From IMG/VR virus record IMGVR_UViG_3300025151_000113, positions 1 to 38,647 of that record: DNA of 38,647 nt; one strand, 5' to 3'. A program made the translations under genes and the position numbers. Each line of letters begins with the position of its first letter. The first letter of the stretch is position 1. Below the pieces are notes generated by a model, which was not told where the DNA came from, searched no databases, and was given only the letters and a program-made list of their open reading frames with translations. This document shows positions 418-35,551 of the stretch, piece after piece. This stretch comes from a virus.

Positions 418-1983
418 ATGGAGTACAATTTGCCTAGCGTACTCGTCAAAGAACTTAACTTTGGTGAGGAAGCTAAAAACAAAATTAAAGCCGGAGTAGA
501 CAAGCTAGCGTCAGCAGTTAAGTCTACTCTTGGCGCCTCTGGTAAATGCGTTATATATGAAGACGCAAGAGGCAACCCGGTCATAACAAAAGACGGAGTA
601 ACAGTAGCAGAATCTGTTGTCTTACTTGACCCGGTTGAAAACTTAGGAGCTACACTAATTAAAGAAGCAGCTAAAAACACAGTAGACCAAGCTGGAGACG
701 GTACTACAACTGCTACAGTACTAGCTCAAGCCTTATTAACTGAAGTTTACAATGTTGATAAAAAATATTCTATTAGAAAAATAAAAGACGGATTTGATAA
801 GGGTGTTGAAAAAATAATAAAATATTTAGATAAGTCTGCTGTCAAGATTGAGGGCGATATGCTGAGATCTGTAAGCTCAATAAGTTGTAACAATGATAAA
901 GAGCTTGGAAAAATTATAGCAGAGGCTTATGAAACTGTTGGTAAAGATGGTGTTGTTTTAATGGAAACATCTGAAACTGACGAAACTTATGTTGATGTTG
1001 TTGAGGGAGTACAAATGGAGTGTAAACTAACATCTCCTCATTTTGTTACAGACAAAGACAAACATAAGTGTGAGCTTGATAACCCACTAGTACTGATTGT
1101 AACAAGTGAAATACCGAATGTAAGAAAAATACAAGGTATACTTGAGTACGTTATCAAACAAAACAGAGCTTTATTAATTGTGGCTGAGGTAGCTAGCCAA
1201 GTTAAACAAGCTTTAATGATGAATAAAATAAAAGGTAATATAAAAGTAAATATTATCGACTTACCAGGCTTTGGTCCTACTAAAAATGACACTTGTGAAG
1301 ATTTAGCAATATTAACAGGTGCCACTATAATAAACGAAGAGCTTGGAGATGACTTAGACTTAATAACAACTGAACACCTTGGAGAAGCTGCTTATGCGGT
1401 TACTGATGATAGGCATACAGTTATAACAACACTAGACGATGTTCAAGAACATTTACCGGAAAGAATCGAACAAGTGCGAAAACTCGTATCTGACGAAAAA
1501 AATTCTTACATTAAGAAAAAACTGGAACAAAGACTGTCTATGTTATCGGGTCGCGTTGGAGTCATCAAAGTGGGTGCTAATTCTAAGGTAGAGTTAAAAG
1601 AAAAGCGTGATAGAGTAGAAGATGCTATATACGCTACCAAAGCAGCTTTACAAGAAGGTATTGTAGCTGGAGGTGGTGTAGCATTAATAAACGCTAGTAA
1701 TTCATACAACACCAAAGAAGTTGGTGAAAACTTATTACTTAAGGCTATAAAATCACCTTACTATACTATATTAGCAAATGCTGGTATAGATACAAAAGAA
1801 ACTAAAGAAGAAGGCGTAGGTGTAAACGCTGTTACTGGTGAAAAAGTTAATATGATTGAAGTTGGAATTATTGATCCAGTATTAGTTACTAAAACAGCTC
1901 TTAAAAATGCAGTAAGCGTTGTGTCAACAATTATATCTGCAGATTGTGTAATTTCAAATATACGAGCAGATGAGGGCAGTTAA
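418..1983 (+). CDS. groEL: GroEL-type chaperonin (60 kDa)
   Basis: ATP-driven chaperonin ring subunit. The 521 residues align along all of bacterial GroEL: TKDGVTVA with D59 (E. coli D52), the GDGTTTATV phosphate loop with D94 (D87), the PGFG segment of the apical domain, RVEDAIYAT with D402 (D398, ATP hydrolysis) and AGGGVAL in the C-terminal equatorial domain. Differences from E. coli are informative. The GGM-repeat tail is absent and the protein ends ISNIRADEGS. In the apical substrate/GroES-binding strand, the equivalents of Y199 and Y203 appear to be L204 and H208, while F209 is kept. The N-terminus is about seven residues longer. The frame overlaps groES by 14 bases, so the two are surely cotranscribed. 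Phage chaperonins usually fold phage structural proteins; here the client is not known. Confidence 0.97.
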   Translation: MEYNLPSVLVKELNFGEEAKNKIKAGVDKLASAVKSTLGASGKCVIYEDARGNPVITKDGVTVAESVVLLDPVENLGATLIKEAAKNTVDQAGDGTTTATVLAQALLTEVYNVDKKYSIRKIKDGFDKGVEKIIKYLDKSAVKIEGDMLRSVSSISCNNDKELGKIIAEAYETVGKDGVVLMETSETDETYVDVVEGVQMECKLTSPHFVTDKDKHKCELDNPLVLIVTSEIPNVRKIQGILEYVIKQNRALLIVAEVASQVKQALMMNKIKGNIKVNIIDLPGFGPTKNDTCEDLAILTGATIINEELGDDLDLITTEHLGEAAYAVTDDRHTVITTLDDVQEHLPERIEQVRKLVSDEKNSYIKKKLEQRLSMLSGRVGVIKVGANSKVELKEKRDRVEDAIYATKAALQEGIVAGGGVALINASNSYNTKEVGENLLLKAIKSPYYTILANAGIDTKETKEEGVGVNAVTGEKVNMIEVGIIDPVLVTKTALKNAVSVVSTIISADCVISNIRADEGS

Positions 1984-2227
1984 CGATTACATATTAATAG
2001 AAAAAATAAAACAAGCTGAAAGAAAAGTAAACGGCTTGTTACTAACTGAAGATCTTGACAAAGAAGTTAGATATGCTAGGGCTAAAGTTATATCAATTGG
2101 TAGTTTAGTTCAAGGTATAAAAGAAGAAGAAGTGGTTTGTTATGACAAGCATGCTGGAGCAGGTATTGAGTGGAACGATAAATTATACCACGTTATACGT
2201 ATGAGAGATGTTGTGTTTGTTGAATGA
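1970..2227 (+). CDS. groES: GroES-type co-chaperonin
   Basis: Single-domain lid for the GroEL ring, 85 residues against about 97 in E. coli. Visible features are an N-terminal strand (NDYILIEKIKQ), a mobile-loop region with NGLLLTED in place of the usual GGIVL motif, a core strand RAKVISIGS, and a C-terminal MRDVVFVE that corresponds to the usual DILAIVE end. The dome region is short. The start ATG lies inside the end of groEL (14-base overlap) and the stop overlaps the next start as ATGA. The order EL then ES is the reverse of the usual bacterial groES-groEL operon, which points to a phage arrangement rather than a recent transfer of a host operon. Confidence 0.9.
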   Translation: MRAVNDYILIEKIKQAERKVNGLLLTEDLDKEVRYARAKVISIGSLVQGIKEEEVVCYDKHAGAGIEWNDKLYHVIRMRDVVFVE

Positions 2228-2664
2228 AATTAACAGCTCAAGTTTTAAGAGAAATTAACCTTTTTAAATACTACAGATTAGCAAGAAAATGGGCTTGTAA
2301 AACTTACAACATAACCGACGCTGATCTGGAGTTGTTAATATATTTAGACTGTAAAGGAAGATTTACTAGAAATGATTTTATAAACGGCGCATATACTTAC
2401 TCTTGGGATAAAAACAGATGGGAAAGATTAAAAAGAGAAGGTTGGATAGAAACTTGGAGACATAGAAACAGAACAACTATTAAGTATTCAGTATTTAAAA
2501 CTTCATTTAAGTGTAGTCAAGTAATAAGTAGAATATATAGAATACTTCTAGGTGAAGAAGATTTACCAACATCAGAAAGAAGTAAATTTTTTAATAACAA
2601 ATCATATACAGATAAAGTTTATAATAAAGCTATAGATGATATGATAAAAGACAAAGATAGATAA
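2224..2664 (+). CDS. winged-helix-like protein, possible DNA-binding regulator
   Basis: A 146-residue basic protein. After an N-terminal helix (residues 1-28), ITDADLELLIYLDCKGRFTR looks like the first helices of a MarR-like winged-helix domain. WDKNRWERLKREGWI (about 61-75) fits a recognition helix leading into a wing with ETWRHRNRTTIKYSV. A second basic helical part and a charged tail follow. Assignment is from the pattern only; it could instead be a structural or morphogenesis protein. The start overlaps the groES stop (ATGA) and the stop overlaps the next start by one base (TAATG), so it is translationally coupled on both sides. Confidence 0.5.
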   Translation: MKLTAQVLREINLFKYYRLARKWACKTYNITDADLELLIYLDCKGRFTRNDFINGAYTYSWDKNRWERLKREGWIETWRHRNRTTIKYSVFKTSFKCSQVISRIYRILLGEEDLPTSERSKFFNNKSYTDKVYNKAIDDMIKDKDR

Positions 2665-3017
2665 TGGCGTTTAAACTAGGAAGAGAAAAAAGAAAAACAA
2701 GAACACCAGATAATAGCGTACCTATTTATAGAAAAAACCTTGACCAAGGTGTTTTAGGTGAGGCTAATATGGACGGTACTATATTTGTTGATAAAAGTTT
2801 AAAGCCAGGTAGCGCTAAATTTAAAGAAGTTGTTAGTCATGAAATGGTACATGCGAAAGAAATGAAAGAAGGTAAATTATCATATGGTGACGACTGGATA
2901 AAGTACAATGGTAAAACTTATCCTAGAAAAGACGGTAAAATAAAGTATAACGGAAAGTGGACAGAAGAAGGAAGTAAATCTTTTCCTTGGGAAAAATCTG
3001 CTTATAAAAATCAATAA
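2664..3017 (+). CDS. small HExxH putative zinc metallopeptidase
   Basis: A 117-residue protein with a clear HExxH zincin motif, H59-E-M-V-H63, in the expected helical context (VVSHEMVHAKEMKEG). A possible third ligand is E110 in the PWEKSAY end. The segment between is short and repeats a KYNGK motif (twice, around residues 81-95). There is no signal peptide and the N-terminus is very basic (GREKRKTRTP). Similar small HExxH proteins are a recurring type in marine phages, with untested function. It lies two genes before the holin, so a role in lysis is possible. Maturation of a virion protein is an alternative. Confidence 0.55.
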   Translation: MAFKLGREKRKTRTPDNSVPIYRKNLDQGVLGEANMDGTIFVDKSLKPGSAKFKEVVSHEMVHAKEMKEGKLSYGDDWIKYNGKTYPRKDGKIKYNGKWTEEGSKSFPWEKSAYKNQ

Positions 3018-3329: not shown

Positions 3330-3716
3330 ATGCTAAGTAAAATATTTTCAGCTGGAGCTGGTGAGTTAATTAAAAATGTTGGCGGTGTTATAGACAATTT
3401 ACATACATCAGCTGAAGAAAAAGCCGCTGCAGAAAAAGCAATAAAAGACATGATCTTAGGTTACGAAGCTGAGATGCAAAAACAAGTAACTGAAAGATGG
3501 AAATTAGACATGAACTCAGACTCGTGGCTAAGTAAAAATATAAGACCACTAGTATTAGTATTTTTAGTAATAGCAACTGTATTACTAATATTTATTGATG
3601 CTGGTGTTTTAAGTTTTCAAGTGCAAGACAAATGGACTGATTTATTACAATTAGTGTTAATAACAGTTATTGGTGCATATTTTGGTGGAAGATCATTAGA
3701 AAAAGTAAAAAAATAA
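3330..3716 (+). CDS. holin, 3TM-type phage holin family
   Basis: Membrane protein expected to permeabilise the inner membrane at lysis. It has an N-terminal amphipathic/hydrophobic stretch (SKIFSAGAGELIKNVGGVI), a charged helix, then DSWLSKNIRPL, which resembles the lead-in of the GTA/3TM holin family. Transmembrane segments follow at about 73-95 and 104-120, and the protein ends in a basic KVKK tail. Length 128 is normal for the family. It sits directly before the adhesion genes with no gap (stop 3716, next start 3717). No muramidase or amidase is recognisable beside it. Confidence 0.8.
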   Translation: MLSKIFSAGAGELIKNVGGVIDNLHTSAEEKAAAEKAIKDMILGYEAEMQKQVTERWKLDMNSDSWLSKNIRPLVLVFLVIATVLLIFIDAGVLSFQVQDKWTDLLQLVLITVIGAYFGGRSLEKVKK

Positions 3717-14624: not shown

Positions 14625-14826
14625 AATTAGTATAGGTAAAGATTATAAAAACGATGCAATGCATTACGCAGTTGGTCAAGAGGTTTATGGTGGTCATACT
14701 ATATGTAATATATTAGAAGAAACTGATAAATACTCAATTTATATTAAAAAGAAAAAAGAGGTTATACCTTGGAAAGATTTTAATAAAAATATGGCTATAT
14801 CTGTAGAGTATAATTTAGAGTACTAA
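14596..14826 (+). CDS. small protein of unknown function, IRKISIG family type
   Basis: Up to 76 residues from the first ATG; a second ATG at 14605 (MEKLIRKISIG) gives 73 residues and may be the true start. IRKISIGKDYKNDAMHYAVGQ followed by GGHTI and an ICNILEETDKYSIYIKKK strand gives a small alpha/beta or all-beta fold. Similar short proteins recur near packaging genes of Bacteroidetes phages, in my recollection, without a known role. It overlaps the previous gene by 29 bases and the next start by one base (TAATG), so it is translationally coupled. Confidence 0.55.
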   Translation: MKTMEKLIRKISIGKDYKNDAMHYAVGQEVYGGHTICNILEETDKYSIYIKKKKEVIPWKDFNKNMAISVEYNLEY

Positions 14827-15419
14827 TGAGAAGTATCTACAATTTTGTTGTAGAACCTATTGGGAATAGATATAATAACGCAAAGAAACTAGGTGATAAA
14901 GAATTAATTCTAAACACAGACATATTCAATCACAAATTTATAAACAGAAAAGCTCGTGTTATATCTACCCCTATAATAGGTAACAACACAGGAATAAATG
15001 TTGGTGATGAAATAATAGTTCATCATAATATATTTAGACGTTGGCATGACGTAAGAGGTAACGAAAGAAACAGCTCAAGCTGGATAAATGAAAACACTTA
15101 TAGTATATACCACGATCAAATATACGCTGTTAAAACAGAAAACAGTTGGAAACCATTAAATGGTTATATATTTTTACAACCATTAAAAGAAGATAATAAG
15201 TTTTCTACTGAAAAAGAAAAGTTTATAGGCAAAGTTGTTTATGGCAACGATGAATATAAAAAAGGAGATATACTTGGCTTTGCTAGAGTTGGTGCTAGAT
15301 TTGAGTTTGTTATAGATGGTCAAAGACTTTACAAAGTTAATTTAAATTTAATTACAATAAAATATGAATGTAAAGGAAACGAAGAGACGTATAATCCAAG
15401 CTGGGCACAGGGCAGTTGA
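14826..15419 (+). CDS. tandem GroES-like (co-chaperonin-like) protein, putative
   Basis: A 197-residue protein that looks like two GroES-type beta-barrels in a row. The first (1-105) has YNFVVEPI, then RKARVISTPIIG, INVGDEIIVHHN and YSIYHDQIYAVK, matching in order the strands of the GroES at 1970 (RAKVISIGS, then EEEVVCYDKH). The second (about 112-182) has GYIFLQPLKE, FIGKVVYGN, YKKGDILGF, LYKVNLNLITIKYE, again the GroES strand order with a final VLIVE-like strand. Tandem Cpn10 domains are known in chloroplast Cpn20. No clear mobile-loop GGIVL motif is seen, so GroEL binding is unproven. It overlaps the next gene by 56 bases and sits just before the terminase genes. Confidence 0.55.
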   Translation: MRSIYNFVVEPIGNRYNNAKKLGDKELILNTDIFNHKFINRKARVISTPIIGNNTGINVGDEIIVHHNIFRRWHDVRGNERNSSSWINENTYSIYHDQIYAVKTENSWKPLNGYIFLQPLKEDNKFSTEKEKFIGKVVYGNDEYKKGDILGFARVGARFEFVIDGQRLYKVNLNLITIKYECKGNEETYNPSWAQGS

Positions 15420-15639
15420 AGAGTTGATTAAAGTAGCAAAAGAAGATATTGTTGATTCTGATGACGATATATCAGCTGATAGACTTAAAAATGCCGCAGC
15501 TACTAAAAAACTAGCTATATTTGACGCATTTGAGATACTTAACAGAATACAGGAAGAAGAAAACATACTTGAGGGGAAAGATACCGAAGAAAAAAAAGAG
15601 AGAGTATTTAAAGGCTTTGCAGAAGGAAGATCAAAATGA
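15364..15639 (+). CDS. small terminase subunit candidate
   Basis: A 91-residue, almost entirely helical protein directly upstream of TerL. A basic N-terminus (KETKRRIIQAGHRAVEELIKVAKE) is followed by DSDDDISADRLKNAAATKKLAIFDAFEILNRIQEEE and a charged tail. Position and helical make-up fit the DNA-recognising small subunit that oligomerises on the packaging site, but no classic helix-turn-helix is obvious. It overlaps the preceding gene by 56 bases and the TerL start by four (ATGA). It could alternatively be another packaging accessory. Confidence 0.5.
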   Translation: MNVKETKRRIIQAGHRAVEELIKVAKEDIVDSDDDISADRLKNAAATKKLAIFDAFEILNRIQEEENILEGKDTEEKKERVFKGFAEGRSK

Positions 15640-17852
15640 GTTACGAACAAACACTATACAAGATAGTAGAGCCTATTAAGAACACTACAATAACTAGACT
15701 TAATAGAACTAAAAAATGGAAATATGGATATAATAAAGAGCACGATATTGTTGTTATATCAAGAAATGGTACTATTGGCCAAATCTATGAAATACAAGGT
15801 TTGCAAATTGCTTTACCAATGCAACCAAAAAATGTGTATGTGCATGAAAAAAGAAAGTGGCAACAAATAGCATATCCCAAAGAACTATCTAGATTAAAAA
15901 ATATATTTGACTGGAGATCATACCCTGAAGAATCAAAAGAACAGTGGTTTGATTATATAGATGAAGAGTTTAAAAGAAGAGAAGAAGGTTTTTGGTTTTT
16001 AAACGGAAAAGAACCAACATATTTAACAGGAACACACTACATGTATTTACAATGGAGCAAAATAGATGTAGGTGCACCTGATTTTAGAGAAGCTAATAGA
16101 TTATTTTATATATTCTGGGAAGCTTGTAAAGCAGATAAAAGATGTTATGGCATGTGTTATCTTAAAAACAGACGATCTGGCTTTTCTTTTATGTCTTCAG
16201 CTGAAGCAGTTAACCAAGCCACAATATCTAGCGATGCAAGGTTTGGTATATTATCAAAAACTGGAGCTGATGCTAAAAAAATGTTTACAGACAAGGTTGT
16301 ACCAATATCGGTTAATTACCCGTTCTTTTTCAAACCGATTCAAGACGGTATGGATAGACCTAAGTCTGAACTTGCTTATAGGGTTCCTGCAAGTAAGTTC
16401 ACGCGTAAAAAAATTACTGCTAACGAGAAGCAGGAAGACTTGGTTGGACTTGATACTACTATTGATTGGAAAAATACAGGTGACAACAGTTATGACGGGG
16501 AAAAACTTCAACTGTTAGTACATGACGAAAGTGGTAAGTGGGAAAGACCAGATAACATATTAAACAACTGGCGAGTAACAAAAACTTGTTTAAGATTAGG
16601 TAGTAGAATTATTGGTAAGTGTATGATGGGGTCAACATCAAACGCGTTAGATAAAGGAGGTGATAACTTTAAAAAACTATACAATGCATCAGACGTTACT
16701 CAAAGAAATAGGAATGGACAAACAAAGTCTGGCTTGTATTCTCTCTTTATCCCAATGGAATGGAACTACGAAGGCTTTATTGACGAATACGGACGTCCTG
16801 TTTTTGATACGCCTAGTGATGATGTCCTCGCCCCAGACGGAGAGTTAATAGATATAGGTGTAATTGATCATTGGCAAAATGAAGCTGATGGTTTAAAAAA
16901 TGACCAAGACGCATTAAACGAGTTTTATAGACAGTTTCCAAGAACTACAGAGCATGCGTTTAGAGATGAGGCACAAAACAGTATATTTAATCTTATTAAA
17001 ATATACGAGCAAATAGACTACAACGAAGAAATGTCAAGAACATTAGGTATTTCAACAGGTAGTTTTCAATGGGTTAACGGAGTAAAAGACACTAAAGTTA
17101 TATTTTATCCAGATCCAAAAGGTAGATTTAAAGTAAGCTGGGTACCACCAGTACACTTGCAAAACAATATAATAATAAAAAATGGAATCAAATATCCTGG
17201 CAACGATCATATGGGCGCTTTTGGCTGCGACAGCTACGATATTAGCGGTACTGTAGACGGTAAAGGCTCAAAAGGTGCTTTACATGGGTTAACTAAGTTT
17301 AGCATGGAAGACGCACCACCAAGCCAGTTTTTCTTAGAATATATAGCAAGACCACAAACAGCTGAGATATTCTTTGAAGACGTTTTAATGGCTTTAATTT
17401 ATTACGGGATGCCAATGCTCGCTGAGAACAATAAGCCTCGTCTATTGTATCATTTAAGAAGGCGTGGTTATAGAGGTTTTAGTATGAACCGTCCTGATAA
17501 AGTTTGGAATAAACTTTCAACAACTGAAAAAGAAATAGGTGGAATACCAAATACAAGTGAGGACATAAAACAAGCTCATGCTGCTGCAATAGAGATGTAT
17601 ATACAAGAAAAAGTTGGACAAACAAAAGAAGGCATTGGTAATATGTATTTTAATACAACTTTAAATGATTGGAGTAGATTTGATATTACTAAAAGAACAA
17701 AATACGATGCTACAATTAGTAGTGGGTTAGCAATAATGGCTTGTAATAGACATTTGTATAAGCCAAACCCTGCAATGAAAAAAGCACCGATAAATATACA
17801 AATTGCTAAGTATAGCAATAAAGGAACAAATTCAAAAATAATTAAACAATAA
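15636..17852 (+). CDS. terL: terminase large subunit (packaging ATPase-nuclease)
   Basis: Motor that cuts and translocates DNA into the prohead; 738 residues. The Walker A position reads K177-N-R-R-S-G-F-S184, lacking the usual GK[ST] lysine but matching the deviant lambda gpA form with the lysine moved to the front. Walker B is LLVHDE (293-298), with E298 as the likely catalytic glutamate. MGSTSN (331-336) fits the coupling motif. The nuclease domain starts at GCDSYDISGT with D532 and D535; D691 in RTKYDATISSG fits a later metal ligand. The N-terminal 130 residues contain a fibre-unlike helical lead-in typical of this family. The start overlaps the stop of the small-subunit candidate (ATGA) and the portal gene follows after one base. 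Confidence 0.93.
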   Translation: MSYEQTLYKIVEPIKNTTITRLNRTKKWKYGYNKEHDIVVISRNGTIGQIYEIQGLQIALPMQPKNVYVHEKRKWQQIAYPKELSRLKNIFDWRSYPEESKEQWFDYIDEEFKRREEGFWFLNGKEPTYLTGTHYMYLQWSKIDVGAPDFREANRLFYIFWEACKADKRCYGMCYLKNRRSGFSFMSSAEAVNQATISSDARFGILSKTGADAKKMFTDKVVPISVNYPFFFKPIQDGMDRPKSELAYRVPASKFTRKKITANEKQEDLVGLDTTIDWKNTGDNSYDGEKLQLLVHDESGKWERPDNILNNWRVTKTCLRLGSRIIGKCMMGSTSNALDKGGDNFKKLYNASDVTQRNRNGQTKSGLYSLFIPMEWNYEGFIDEYGRPVFDTPSDDVLAPDGELIDIGVIDHWQNEADGLKNDQDALNEFYRQFPRTTEHAFRDEAQNSIFNLIKIYEQIDYNEEMSRTLGISTGSFQWVNGVKDTKVIFYPDPKGRFKVSWVPPVHLQNNIIIKNGIKYPGNDHMGAFGCDSYDISGTVDGKGSKGALHGLTKFSMEDAPPSQFFLEYIARPQTAEIFFEDVLMALIYYGMPMLAENNKPRLLYHLRRRGYRGFSMNRPDKVWNKLSTTEKEIGGIPNTSEDIKQAHAAAIEMYIQEKVGQTKEGIGNMYFNTTLNDWSRFDITKRTKYDATISSGLAIMACNRHLYKPNPAMKKAPINIQIAKYSNKGTNSKIIKQ

Positions 17853-21351: not shown

Positions 21352-22809
21352 ATGGCAGTAACATTTCAAGGAACTGGTAAAATGACACCAGCTCCTATAA
21401 AACAAACACTGGCAACAAACTATATTGATTTTACTTCAGCTGATGAAAAAGGTTGGGCGCAACAATATTTGCCAGATTTAATTGAAAAAGAAGCTGAGAT
21501 ATTTGGTAACAGAACTATCTCTGGTTTCTTATCTAAAGTAGGTGCAGAAGAGTCTATGTCTTCTGATCAAGTTATTTGGTCAGAGCAGGGTAGATTACAC
21601 CTAACTTATACTAACTGTACGCTTGCTAACCAAGGTTCTGGTTCGCTTGATGGTGATGTAACAATTACTATGACAGCAGCTAAAGACGTTGATGGTGTTA
21701 CAATAGGTAACAACCACGGTGTAAGACCTGGTGACATGCTTTTAGTTAGAAAAACTACAGTTGTTAAGAAGTTTTTTGTAAACGCAGTAGCTTCAGGTGT
21801 AATAACTGCATTTGCTTATGACACTAACGCAGCTGATATGTCAACTGGTTTAACAGGTTCTGAAGCATGTACTATTATGGTATTTGGTTCTGAGTATGTT
21901 AAAGGATCTGTTGGTAGAGAAGGTGCTAACAAGCCACAATTCCAAACTAGAACTAACAAGCCAATCATATTAAAAGACAAGTATGAGATCTCTGGATCTG
22001 ATGCTGCTCAAATCGGTTGGGTTGAAATTTCTGGTGAAGACGGACAAAATGGTTACTACTGGTACTTAAAAGCTTCTGGTGATACTAAAGCTCGTTTCAA
22101 CGATTACTTAGAAATGGCTATGCTTGAGTCAGAAAAATCAACTGCTAACGCAGGTTCAAACCCAATGGTACCTTCAACTATTACTGGTGCAGCTGGTAAA
22201 ATTACTGGTACTGAAGGTTTATTTGCAGCTATCAACGATAGAGGTCACGTAACATCTGACTTCCAAAATGGTGTTGTAACTGCTGAGGTTGATGACTTAT
22301 TATCTAAGTTAGATGAGCAAGGTGCTATTGAAGAGAACATGATGTTCTTAAATAGAACTGTAACTCTTAACTTTGATGACTGGTTAGCTTCTTTAAATGC
22401 TTACCACTCAAGTGGTACTTCTTGGGGAGTATTTAACAACTCAGAAGAAATGGCATTAAACTTAGGGTTTACTGGTTGGAGAAGAGGTTCTTATGACTTC
22501 TATAAGTCTGACTTTAAATATCTAAATGATAAAGGTACAAGAGCATCTATCGGTAACATTACTGGTGTTATGATACCAGCAGGTGTATCTACTGTATATG
22601 ATGAGGTGTTAGGTAAAAACCTAAAAAGACCTTTCTTACACGTAAGATTCAGAGCTTCTAATATGGAAAGCAGAAAGTACAAAACTTGGACTACTGGTTC
22701 AGTTGGTGCTACTACTTCTGATTTAGATGCGATGGAAATGCACTTCTTATCAGAAAGATGTTTAGTAGTTCAAGGAGCGAACAACTTCTTACTAATGACT
22801 GCTGCATAA
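21352..22809 (+). CDS. major capsid protein, HK97-like
   Basis: Main shell protein, 485 residues. Position after a scaffold candidate, length close to that of crAss-like capsid proteins, and motifs such as WAQQYLPDLIEKEAEIFGNR, SSDQVIWSEQGRLH, an E-loop/P-domain region, and NFDDWLASLNAYHSSG support it. The C-terminal part (MHFLSERCLVVQGANNFLLM) fits the A-domain. No N-terminal delta domain is evident, which fits a separate scaffold. Codon use differs from the neighbours: about half the Phe codons are TTC by eye, while most other genes use mainly TTT. This is expected of a very highly expressed protein. A strong terminator-like hairpin follows. Confidence 0.85.
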   Translation: MAVTFQGTGKMTPAPIKQTLATNYIDFTSADEKGWAQQYLPDLIEKEAEIFGNRTISGFLSKVGAEESMSSDQVIWSEQGRLHLTYTNCTLANQGSGSLDGDVTITMTAAKDVDGVTIGNNHGVRPGDMLLVRKTTVVKKFFVNAVASGVITAFAYDTNAADMSTGLTGSEACTIMVFGSEYVKGSVGREGANKPQFQTRTNKPIILKDKYEISGSDAAQIGWVEISGEDGQNGYYWYLKASGDTKARFNDYLEMAMLESEKSTANAGSNPMVPSTITGAAGKITGTEGLFAAINDRGHVTSDFQNGVVTAEVDDLLSKLDEQGAIEENMMFLNRTVTLNFDDWLASLNAYHSSGTSWGVFNNSEEMALNLGFTGWRRGSYDFYKSDFKYLNDKGTRASIGNITGVMIPAGVSTVYDEVLGKNLKRPFLHVRFRASNMESRKYKTWTTGSVGATTSDLDAMEMHFLSERCLVVQGANNFLLMTAA

Positions 22810-34384: not shown

Positions 34385-35551
34385 ATGAATGTAAATTTAG
34401 TAAACGCATATAGACAAGGTGTAATGTCAGAAGCCCGCAAAGAAATGAGCAAGGGTAGAGTTACTGATGTTTTAGGTAAAGTTGGTAAAGATCTTAATAA
34501 ATTAGGTACTGATTTAGCTAATAAAAGAGAAGCTGATGCTAAAACAGAAGCTCAAAGAATATCTGATGGTAAAAAAACAGGGCAAGATCTTGCTACCGAA
34601 GTATTAAATAGAAGCGGTGGATTAAATGAAAATTATTTAAACGCTTATAGACCTGAAGTAGAAAGATTACAAAATGAATACGATAATGCTGTTCAAAGCG
34701 GTGACAAAGATTTAGAGCAAAAAATATTAGGACAGTTAAACGACTTGAGCGCAACAACTGCAACGTGGGTTGATTTTAGAAAAGACGTTGCACAAACTAT
34801 AGATACTAAAAGTGTTGATGGTAAAGCTATGCCAAACTTAATAAAAGGATTAGACGCAGACACTCAAGATTTATTAAACTCTGTATTAGATTCTAATACT
34901 GAAGTTGTATTTGAAGACGGTGTGTCTAAAATAAAAGGTCCTGACGGTAAGTTGTATAGCAAGGGTGATCTTGAAAAAATACTAGACAACGCTAAAAGAG
35001 ATGTTGCAACTCATAATGATTTGCTAGGTATAAACGAGGTTTTAATGCAAGAAGCTGCTGTAAATGAAGGTTTAAGTACAGACAGCGATAAATACAAACC
35101 TTTTAACAAAGAAGTTACAAATAGAAAAGTAATGCAAATTTTAGAAACAGCAAACATACAATCTATATTAAATGATAATGTGTTTACTGGTGAAGAAACT
35201 ATGTCTAAAAATATTAAGCAATACATTGCTGGTTTAGACTATGGTTCTCTTGGTATTGATACACTTCACAGCGCTGATGGTACAGAAAATAAAAAATCAA
35301 AGTTTGATTTAGATGGAGATGGTACAATAGATCCAGAAGAAATAAAGTTGTTGTCAGAAGAAGATGTTGAAAAAATACATGATGCATTAACTAATCCTAA
35401 AAACGATTTTTATAAAGAAGACAATACTAAAAAAGCTGTTGGTAGTTACTACACAGCTATATTAGAAAAGAACTACGGCGGTATGAGACAAGATGTAGCT
35501 CAATCTTATAAAAAAGAATCTGATCAACTAAACACTTACGGTTTAATTTAA
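34385..35551 (+). CDS. internal virion protein candidate with an EF-hand
   Basis: A 388-residue mainly helical, acidic protein. The notable feature is a canonical EF-hand loop at residues 308-319 (DLDGDGTIDPEE), with ligands D308, D310, D312, T314, D316 and E319 and helices on both sides (LLSEEDVEKIHDAL after it). Family knowledge says such a loop binds Ca2+. The rest has helical segments like ENYLNAYRPEVERLQNEYDN and a beta hairpin with DGVSKIKGPDGKLYSKG. It is the middle gene of three internal-protein genes, placed like T7 gp15. Calcium might control stability or release on ejection (inference). No second EF-hand is evident. Confidence 0.6.
   Translation: MNVNLVNAYRQGVMSEARKEMSKGRVTDVLGKVGKDLNKLGTDLANKREADAKTEAQRISDGKKTGQDLATEVLNRSGGLNENYLNAYRPEVERLQNEYDNAVQSGDKDLEQKILGQLNDLSATTATWVDFRKDVAQTIDTKSVDGKAMPNLIKGLDADTQDLLNSVLDSNTEVVFEDGVSKIKGPDGKLYSKGDLEKILDNAKRDVATHNDLLGINEVLMQEAAVNEGLSTDSDKYKPFNKEVTNRKVMQILETANIQSILNDNVFTGEETMSKNIKQYIAGLDYGSLGIDTLHSADGTENKKSKFDLDGDGTIDPEEIKLLSEEDVEKIHDALTNPKNDFYKEDNTKKAVGSYYTAILEKNYGGMRQDVAQSYKKESDQLNTYGLI

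Follow-up and report, generated by a model that had tools for sequence, protein, structure and literature searches.

Several chaperonin systems described previously resemble that of the virus analysed here. Bacteriophage T4 encodes gp31, a Cpn10-fold protein that substitutes for host GroES on the GroEL of the host. It has no roof, a feature believed to aid the folding of gp23, the large capsid protein (PMC6318259). The phages EL, OBP and AR9 encode GroEL homologues with an altered ring-ring interface or single rings, that of phage EL forming double rings through other contacts and single rings with ATP (PMC7185714), and these chaperonins, which are the phage GroELs studied biochemically, are reported to act independently of a co-chaperonin (PMC9598537, PMC7185714). 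Among 78 environmental genomes resembling phi38:1, 36 encode GroEL (Nishimura et al. 2017, PMC5332604), and the core genes of the Pervagoviridae include a chaperonin cpn10 (Bartlau et al., PMC8776804). The phi38:1 GroEL protein has been detected in infected cells and also, possibly through carry-over, in a free-virion sample (PMC13288928). Outside phages, the chloroplast system combines Cpn60 with a single (Cpn10) and a tandem (Cpn20) co-chaperonin, which form mixed lids (PMC5780408).

The window analysed here, a linear virus record, spans 38,647 bases and encodes terminase, portal, baseplate and tail genes. It has in common with the phi38:1 or ‘group 2’ phages (Pervagoviridae) a GroEL, a single Cpn10, a terminase homologue and, beside the terminase, a tandem Cpn10, and the GroELs of that group branch with those of the window's lineage; however, they are only approximately 38-40% identical to the GroEL of the window, and in that group ES comes first, separated from EL by one gene. 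Elemovirus (Flavobacterium phage elemo), like the window, has groEL ahead of groES; there the two overlap by 1 base and a tandem cpn10 directly precedes the terminase. Its GroEL, however, has approximately 36% identity to that of the window and its tandem protein lacks the C-terminal tail described below. The window phage, unlike T4, supplies the GroEL as well as a roofless GroES and, unlike EL, OBP and AR9, encodes two co-chaperonin genes alongside a GroEL whose ring-ring interface appears from sequence to be altered. As in chloroplasts, one chaperonin is accompanied by a single and a tandem Cpn10, although the tandem protein has no close sequence kinship to Cpn20 and its second domain lacks a recognisable hydrophobic triplet. 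Given the 2017 report on phi38:1-like genomes and the EL-ES order in cultured Elemovirus phages, a phage GroEL/GroES pair is not in itself new. Within the open-licence literature, no report was found of the tandem nature of the second cpn10, of the roofless single lid or of the lost ring contacts. We consider it likely that the GroEL, the roofless GroES and the tandem lid (Table 1) make up a phage-owned chaperonin kit of three genes, probably single-ring, that folds virion proteins.

Table 1. Chaperonin genes of the window and features relevant to their interpretation.
Feature	Coordinates	Strand	Basis
groEL, 521 aa, group I-type chaperonin subunit	418..1983	+	ORF reading, Pfam, PHROGs
groES, 85-aa single-domain co-chaperonin without roof hairpin	1970..2227	+	ORF reading, Pfam, model, fold matches
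Bases shared by the end of groEL and the start of groES (14, two frames)	1970..1983	+	ORF coordinates
Tandem co-chaperonin, 197 aa, two Cpn10-like domains (approximately 1-104 and 107-181)	14826..15419	+	PHROGs, fold match, homologues
Terminase large subunit, just downstream of the tandem gene	15636-17852		
Virion structural protein, 485 aa, probable major capsid protein	21352..22809	+	phrog_13704, gene position

An earlier note on this DNA had described the chaperonin genes as running EL then ES with a 14-base overlap, in the opposite order to the bacterial operon, and on both counts it was exact. All 159 distinct related loci have the EL-ES order, against ES-EL in 56 of 56 bacterial loci, most of which have a short gap between the genes; the order is thus a fixed trait of the lineage and not a chance arrangement. 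An overlap of 14 bases is the commonest within the lineage (96 of the 159 loci), followed by one of 17 bases (31 loci), whilst 25 loci have other overlaps of 1-35 bases and seven carry an insert of 254-427 bases. Sharing these bases probably links the translation of the two genes, keeping the EL-to-ES ratio constant. In ten further phage loci that encode the pair, the order was EL-ES in four (Elemovirus, Manatee Spring podovirus, Maribacter phage Panino and the locus L006) and ES-EL in six. Mapped onto the GroEL tree, EL-ES requires one change, or two if we count L006, which is 28% identical and has no assignable position on that tree. As a distinguishing feature, the order therefore stands insofar as it is fixed in the lineage, but is less special than the note had suggested, given that cultured Elemovirus phages also have it.

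The loci with inserts were of two kinds. In the relatives L020 (1912-2319), L022, L048 and L081, an insert of 408-427 bases between groEL and groES contains an ORF with HxD...H motifs which, read by eye, resembles a 2OG-Fe(II) oxygenase or prolyl hydroxylase, and in L115, L128 and L153 a different insert of 254 bases encodes a basic protein of approximately 80 residues. Directly 5' of groEL, the window has an ORF of 98 aa (89-385) that belongs to no known family and is kept in L002, L003 and L004.

A scan of viral contigs retrieved GroEL relatives from at least 572 IMG/VR stretches and GroES relatives from at least 558 viral contig stretches; the lineage is widespread and abundant in public viromes. 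The earlier statement that complete GroEL/GroES systems are uncommon in phages accordingly holds for isolates, with a GroEL match in approximately 260 of 50,697 phage records, part of which are bacterial contamination, but not for this lineage. In the GroEL tree, the lineage formed a single clade (100/99) that joined the GroELs of other flavobacterial phages (99/90) and was nested in no sampled bacterial phylum. It remained one clade after removal of the long-branched phages Manatee, Panino, Elemo and Calle, whose mutual placement in the tree is not trusted. The highest identity to any bacterial GroEL compared was 44%. Capture of a host groEL was rejected, there being no close relative among the bacteria compared; the phylogeny placed the gene beside no single host groEL, the ATPase residues are intact in related copies, and the long phage history that the note had proposed is upheld.

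Matches of 52-73% identity in genome collections (L170-L179) were not treated as hosts, as they are mostly short contigs of metagenome-assembled genomes (MAGs) with phage gene order. Labelled Maricaulis, Euryarchaeota, Aliivibrio, Chloroflexi and Flavobacteriaceae, these contigs are most likely misbinned DNA of this phage lineage. The nearest terminases to that of the window were from a spring-water podovirus (62.7%) and from Flavobacterium and Cellulophaga phages, and the hosts, as judged from such sequence relationships, are probably marine Bacteroidetes.

The GroEL of the window matched the Pfam family PF00118 (Cpn60) over the full-length domain, with 172.5 bits (cut-off 34.3), and NCBIfam NF000592, with a score of 476 (cut-off 397), but fell below the cut-off of the canonical bacterial equivalog TIGR02348 (473.9 against 582.1 bits); PHROGs assigned it to chaperonin groEL (1.7e-136). 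Residues were compared between 140 distinct GroELs of the lineage and 68 bacterial sequences, using E. coli numbering with the initiating Met counted as 1. The catalytic residues D52, D87 and D398 are all kept in the window (D59, D94 and D402), and T30, D52, D87, T89-T91, D398 and D495, along with the GDGTTT ATPase motif, are invariant in all 140 lineage members. Pairwise dN/dS among eight members, in which synonymous changes are near saturation, was approximately 0.09-0.23 for GroEL and 0.1-0.45 for GroES, indicating that both are under purifying selection.

Other regions of the protein have changed consistently. The C-terminus ends in ISNIRADEGS, and the GGM tail, reported by the note to be missing, is found in none of the 140 lineage GroELs as opposed to 58 of the 68 from bacteria. 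Alignment also confirmed L204 and H208 at the positions of E. coli Y199 and Y203: the former position is L in 125 of the 140 lineage GroELs and Y in 66 of the 68 bacterial ones, the latter H in 133 of 140 and Y in 68 of 68. Further changes of the groove across the lineage include L234Q (140/140), L259K (115/140) and V264M (124/140); elsewhere, P33A is likewise found in 140/140. The apical positions among these contact both substrate and GroES in E. coli, as Fenton et al. reportedly observed in 1994. On this alignment, the lid and substrate groove is altered in a lineage-fixed manner. With the groove changed and two lids encoded, the note's suggestion of a client or lid specificity peculiar to this phage is plausible.

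The GroES of the window scored 39.9 bits against Pfam Cpn10 (cut-off 21.1), was assigned by PHROGs to co-chaperonin GroES and aligned to bacterial GroES in hhalign with a probability of 98.2% (E 5.5e-14). The best Foldseek matches of its predicted structure were all Cpn10 proteins, T4 gp31 (1g31) included. The mobile loop reads NGLLL, where E. coli has GGIVL and other members of the lineage mostly GGLIL, AGLIM or GGLLL, and the gene, adjoining and overlapping groEL, presumably encodes the cognate Cpn10 of the phage chaperonin. Between E. coli positions 42 and 64, 152 of 152 lineage members have 14 residues instead of 23, hence the roof hairpin is gone; in the model (pLDDT 86.9), confidence was low in the mobile loop and no strands were placed in the roof stretch. 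Rooflessness is not a hallmark of phages or a phage-only adaptation, as an equally short, roofless GroES was found in 16 of 56 bacteria. For T4 gp31, the absence of the roof is taken from the publication cited above rather than from a sequence alignment.

The tandem gene was absent from the note's description of the chaperonin genes. Its product matched phrog_13932 (co-chaperonin GroES) and, in tblastn searches, a ‘chaperonin cpn10’ of Elemovirus with 33% identity. In the predicted structure (pLDDT 74.7), the best PDB fold match covering both halves was Chlamydomonas Cpn20 (7ekq_R; Foldseek E 8e-5), with a VIA Z of 10.2 over 153 residues. The first half matched Thermus Cpn10 (Z 7.9) and the second E. 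coli GroES (Z 7.2), whilst dehydrogenases reached a Z of at most 5.2. The protein itself had no match in Pfam or NCBIfam and no Cpn10 match in a PDB sequence search, so it is assigned on the strength of its PHROGs match, of the fold similarity and of a series of linked homologues: those in Calle_1 and the Pachyviridae exceed the Pfam Cpn10 cut-off, and a profile of the window's tandem family reaches the Pachyviridae proteins with an E of about 1e-6. The model thus points to two Cpn10-fold domains placed head to tail. Matches to an acyltransferase (E 0.086) and to a protein of Enterobacter phage ST22 (E 0.4) were dismissed as chance.

The two domains of the tandem protein differ, in that the first retains, where GroES has its mobile loop, a long loop containing a hydrophobic triplet (x-L-I-L-N), whereas the corresponding loop of the second is shorter and polar, with no recognisable GroEL-binding triplet. 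The protein ends in a YNPSWA tail, of which YNP is present in 77 of 79 distinct complete lineage members; this tail is missing from the homologues in Elemovirus, Calle, Manatee and the Pachyviridae. Each of the ten large lineage records with GroEL/GroES (10/10) also carries the tandem gene, and in the Pachyviridae, Pervagoviridae, Elemovirus and this lineage it lies at or beside the terminase. The Pachyviridae phages phi18:3, phi13:2, phi46:3 and phi19:3 (L262-L265) encode the single Cpn10 together with the tandem one, but no GroEL; Gundel_1, which is related to these four, has none of the three genes. At least in these four phages, therefore, the lids must act on a different chaperonin or in another role, which suggests that they work with the GroEL of the host or in another capacity, and the two lids may predate the phage chaperonin in this group.

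These observations bear on a different reading of the tandem protein, namely that it is a packaging or head-assembly factor with a Cpn10 fold, acting with the adjoining terminase rather than as a lid for GroEL. Its constant terminase neighbour, also in phages without GroEL, its near-invariant tail and the state of its second domain would all fit such a role. On the other hand, the first domain retains the long loop and hydrophobic triplet expected of a lid, and those Pachyviridae that encode the tandem protein could rely on host GroEL in the manner of T4 gp31. We regard a packaging role as a serious possibility, though one we would bet against.

With respect to the rings, mutation of R452, E461, S463 and V464 turns E. 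coli GroEL into a single-ring form, and such mutants trap GroES and work only when GroES binding is weakened (PMC5575113). These positions hold R/K, E/D, S/A/G and V/I/L, respectively, in 68 of 68 bacteria but are unconstrained in the lineage (125 members with a usable anchor), in which the loop between G459 and GxN has 11-13 residues as opposed to 17-18 in bacteria. As the gap placed by MAFFT at E461-V464 depends on the alignment, the loop was read from a fixed anchor, free of any alignment. The sequences suggest that a double ring of the E. coli type is absent; the loss of these contacts is no proof of a single ring, given that the double rings of phage EL use other contacts, but the phage GroEL probably forms mainly single heptameric rings.

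The same comparisons weigh on the proposal that the genes encode an ordinary double-ring GroEL/GroES of bacterial origin, a general supplement for stress or dosage with no special client or lid specificity. Such a supplement would account for the retention of the core fold, the ATPase residues and a cognate GroES, and the roofless GroES is found in some bacteria too. However, the clade is old and separate, the inter-ring residues and apical groove have diverged in all or almost all members, and all of the large records have a linked tandem lid, rendering this explanation improbable. That the chaperonin acts without encapsulation, as do those of EL, OBP and AR9, with the lids only modulating it, seems to us equally unlikely, since a groES with a mobile loop lies directly 3' of groEL and overlaps it in nearly all members, groES is under purifying selection, two co-chaperonin genes are encoded, and the GroEL, which matches Cpn60 in full, is close to that of bacteria.

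In the phage-owned chaperonin that we favour, the single rings formed during infection would bind phage proteins by means of the altered groove in the apical domain, and lids encoded by the phage, not those of the host, would close them. The cap may be a mixed ring of single and tandem subunits, a natural proposal in light of the mixed lids of chloroplasts. Binding of the lids is expected to be weaker, owing to the altered groove and to a tandem subunit with one loop per two domains, and such weak capping would permit lid release without a second ring. A lid with no roof would give space to a bulky client, for which the capsid protein or some other large protein of the virion is the likeliest candidate. 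The state of the rings, the stoichiometry of the lids and the identity of the client are all features that we infer. The 485-aa structural protein is encoded after the terminase, the portal and one further gene, as is the annotated major capsid protein of Calle_1, and we name it, as a guess, as a candidate client.

A narrower form of this scheme, which we put forward tentatively and with some doubt, is a natural single ring closed by a seven-domain lid of single and tandem subunits with reduced affinity, an independent counterpart of chloroplast Cpn60/10/20. Such a lid would make fewer than seven contacts, and hence bind less tightly, because the second domain of the tandem lacks a GroEL-binding loop; if so, its reduced affinity would be just what engineered single-ring GroEL needs to cycle. 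More generally, a GroEL without the inter-ring residues and with two kinds of lid would offer a natural test of single-ring cycling, as well as of the way in which tandem lids are accommodated on a seven-fold ring, an issue already raised for chloroplasts. The system is testable through its cultured relatives phi38:1, Calle and elemo.

Among the other genes of the window, a small protein (2664-3017) contains SHEMVHAKE, a zinc-peptidase-like HExxH motif, with a Pfam M91 match below the cut-off (E 0.0095), and 3330-3716 encodes a probable holin (phrog_3427, E 4e-31) that also weakly matches GTA_holin_3TM. A protein of 388 aa (34385-35551) has one EF-hand-like calcium-binding stretch, the match likewise falling below the cut-off.
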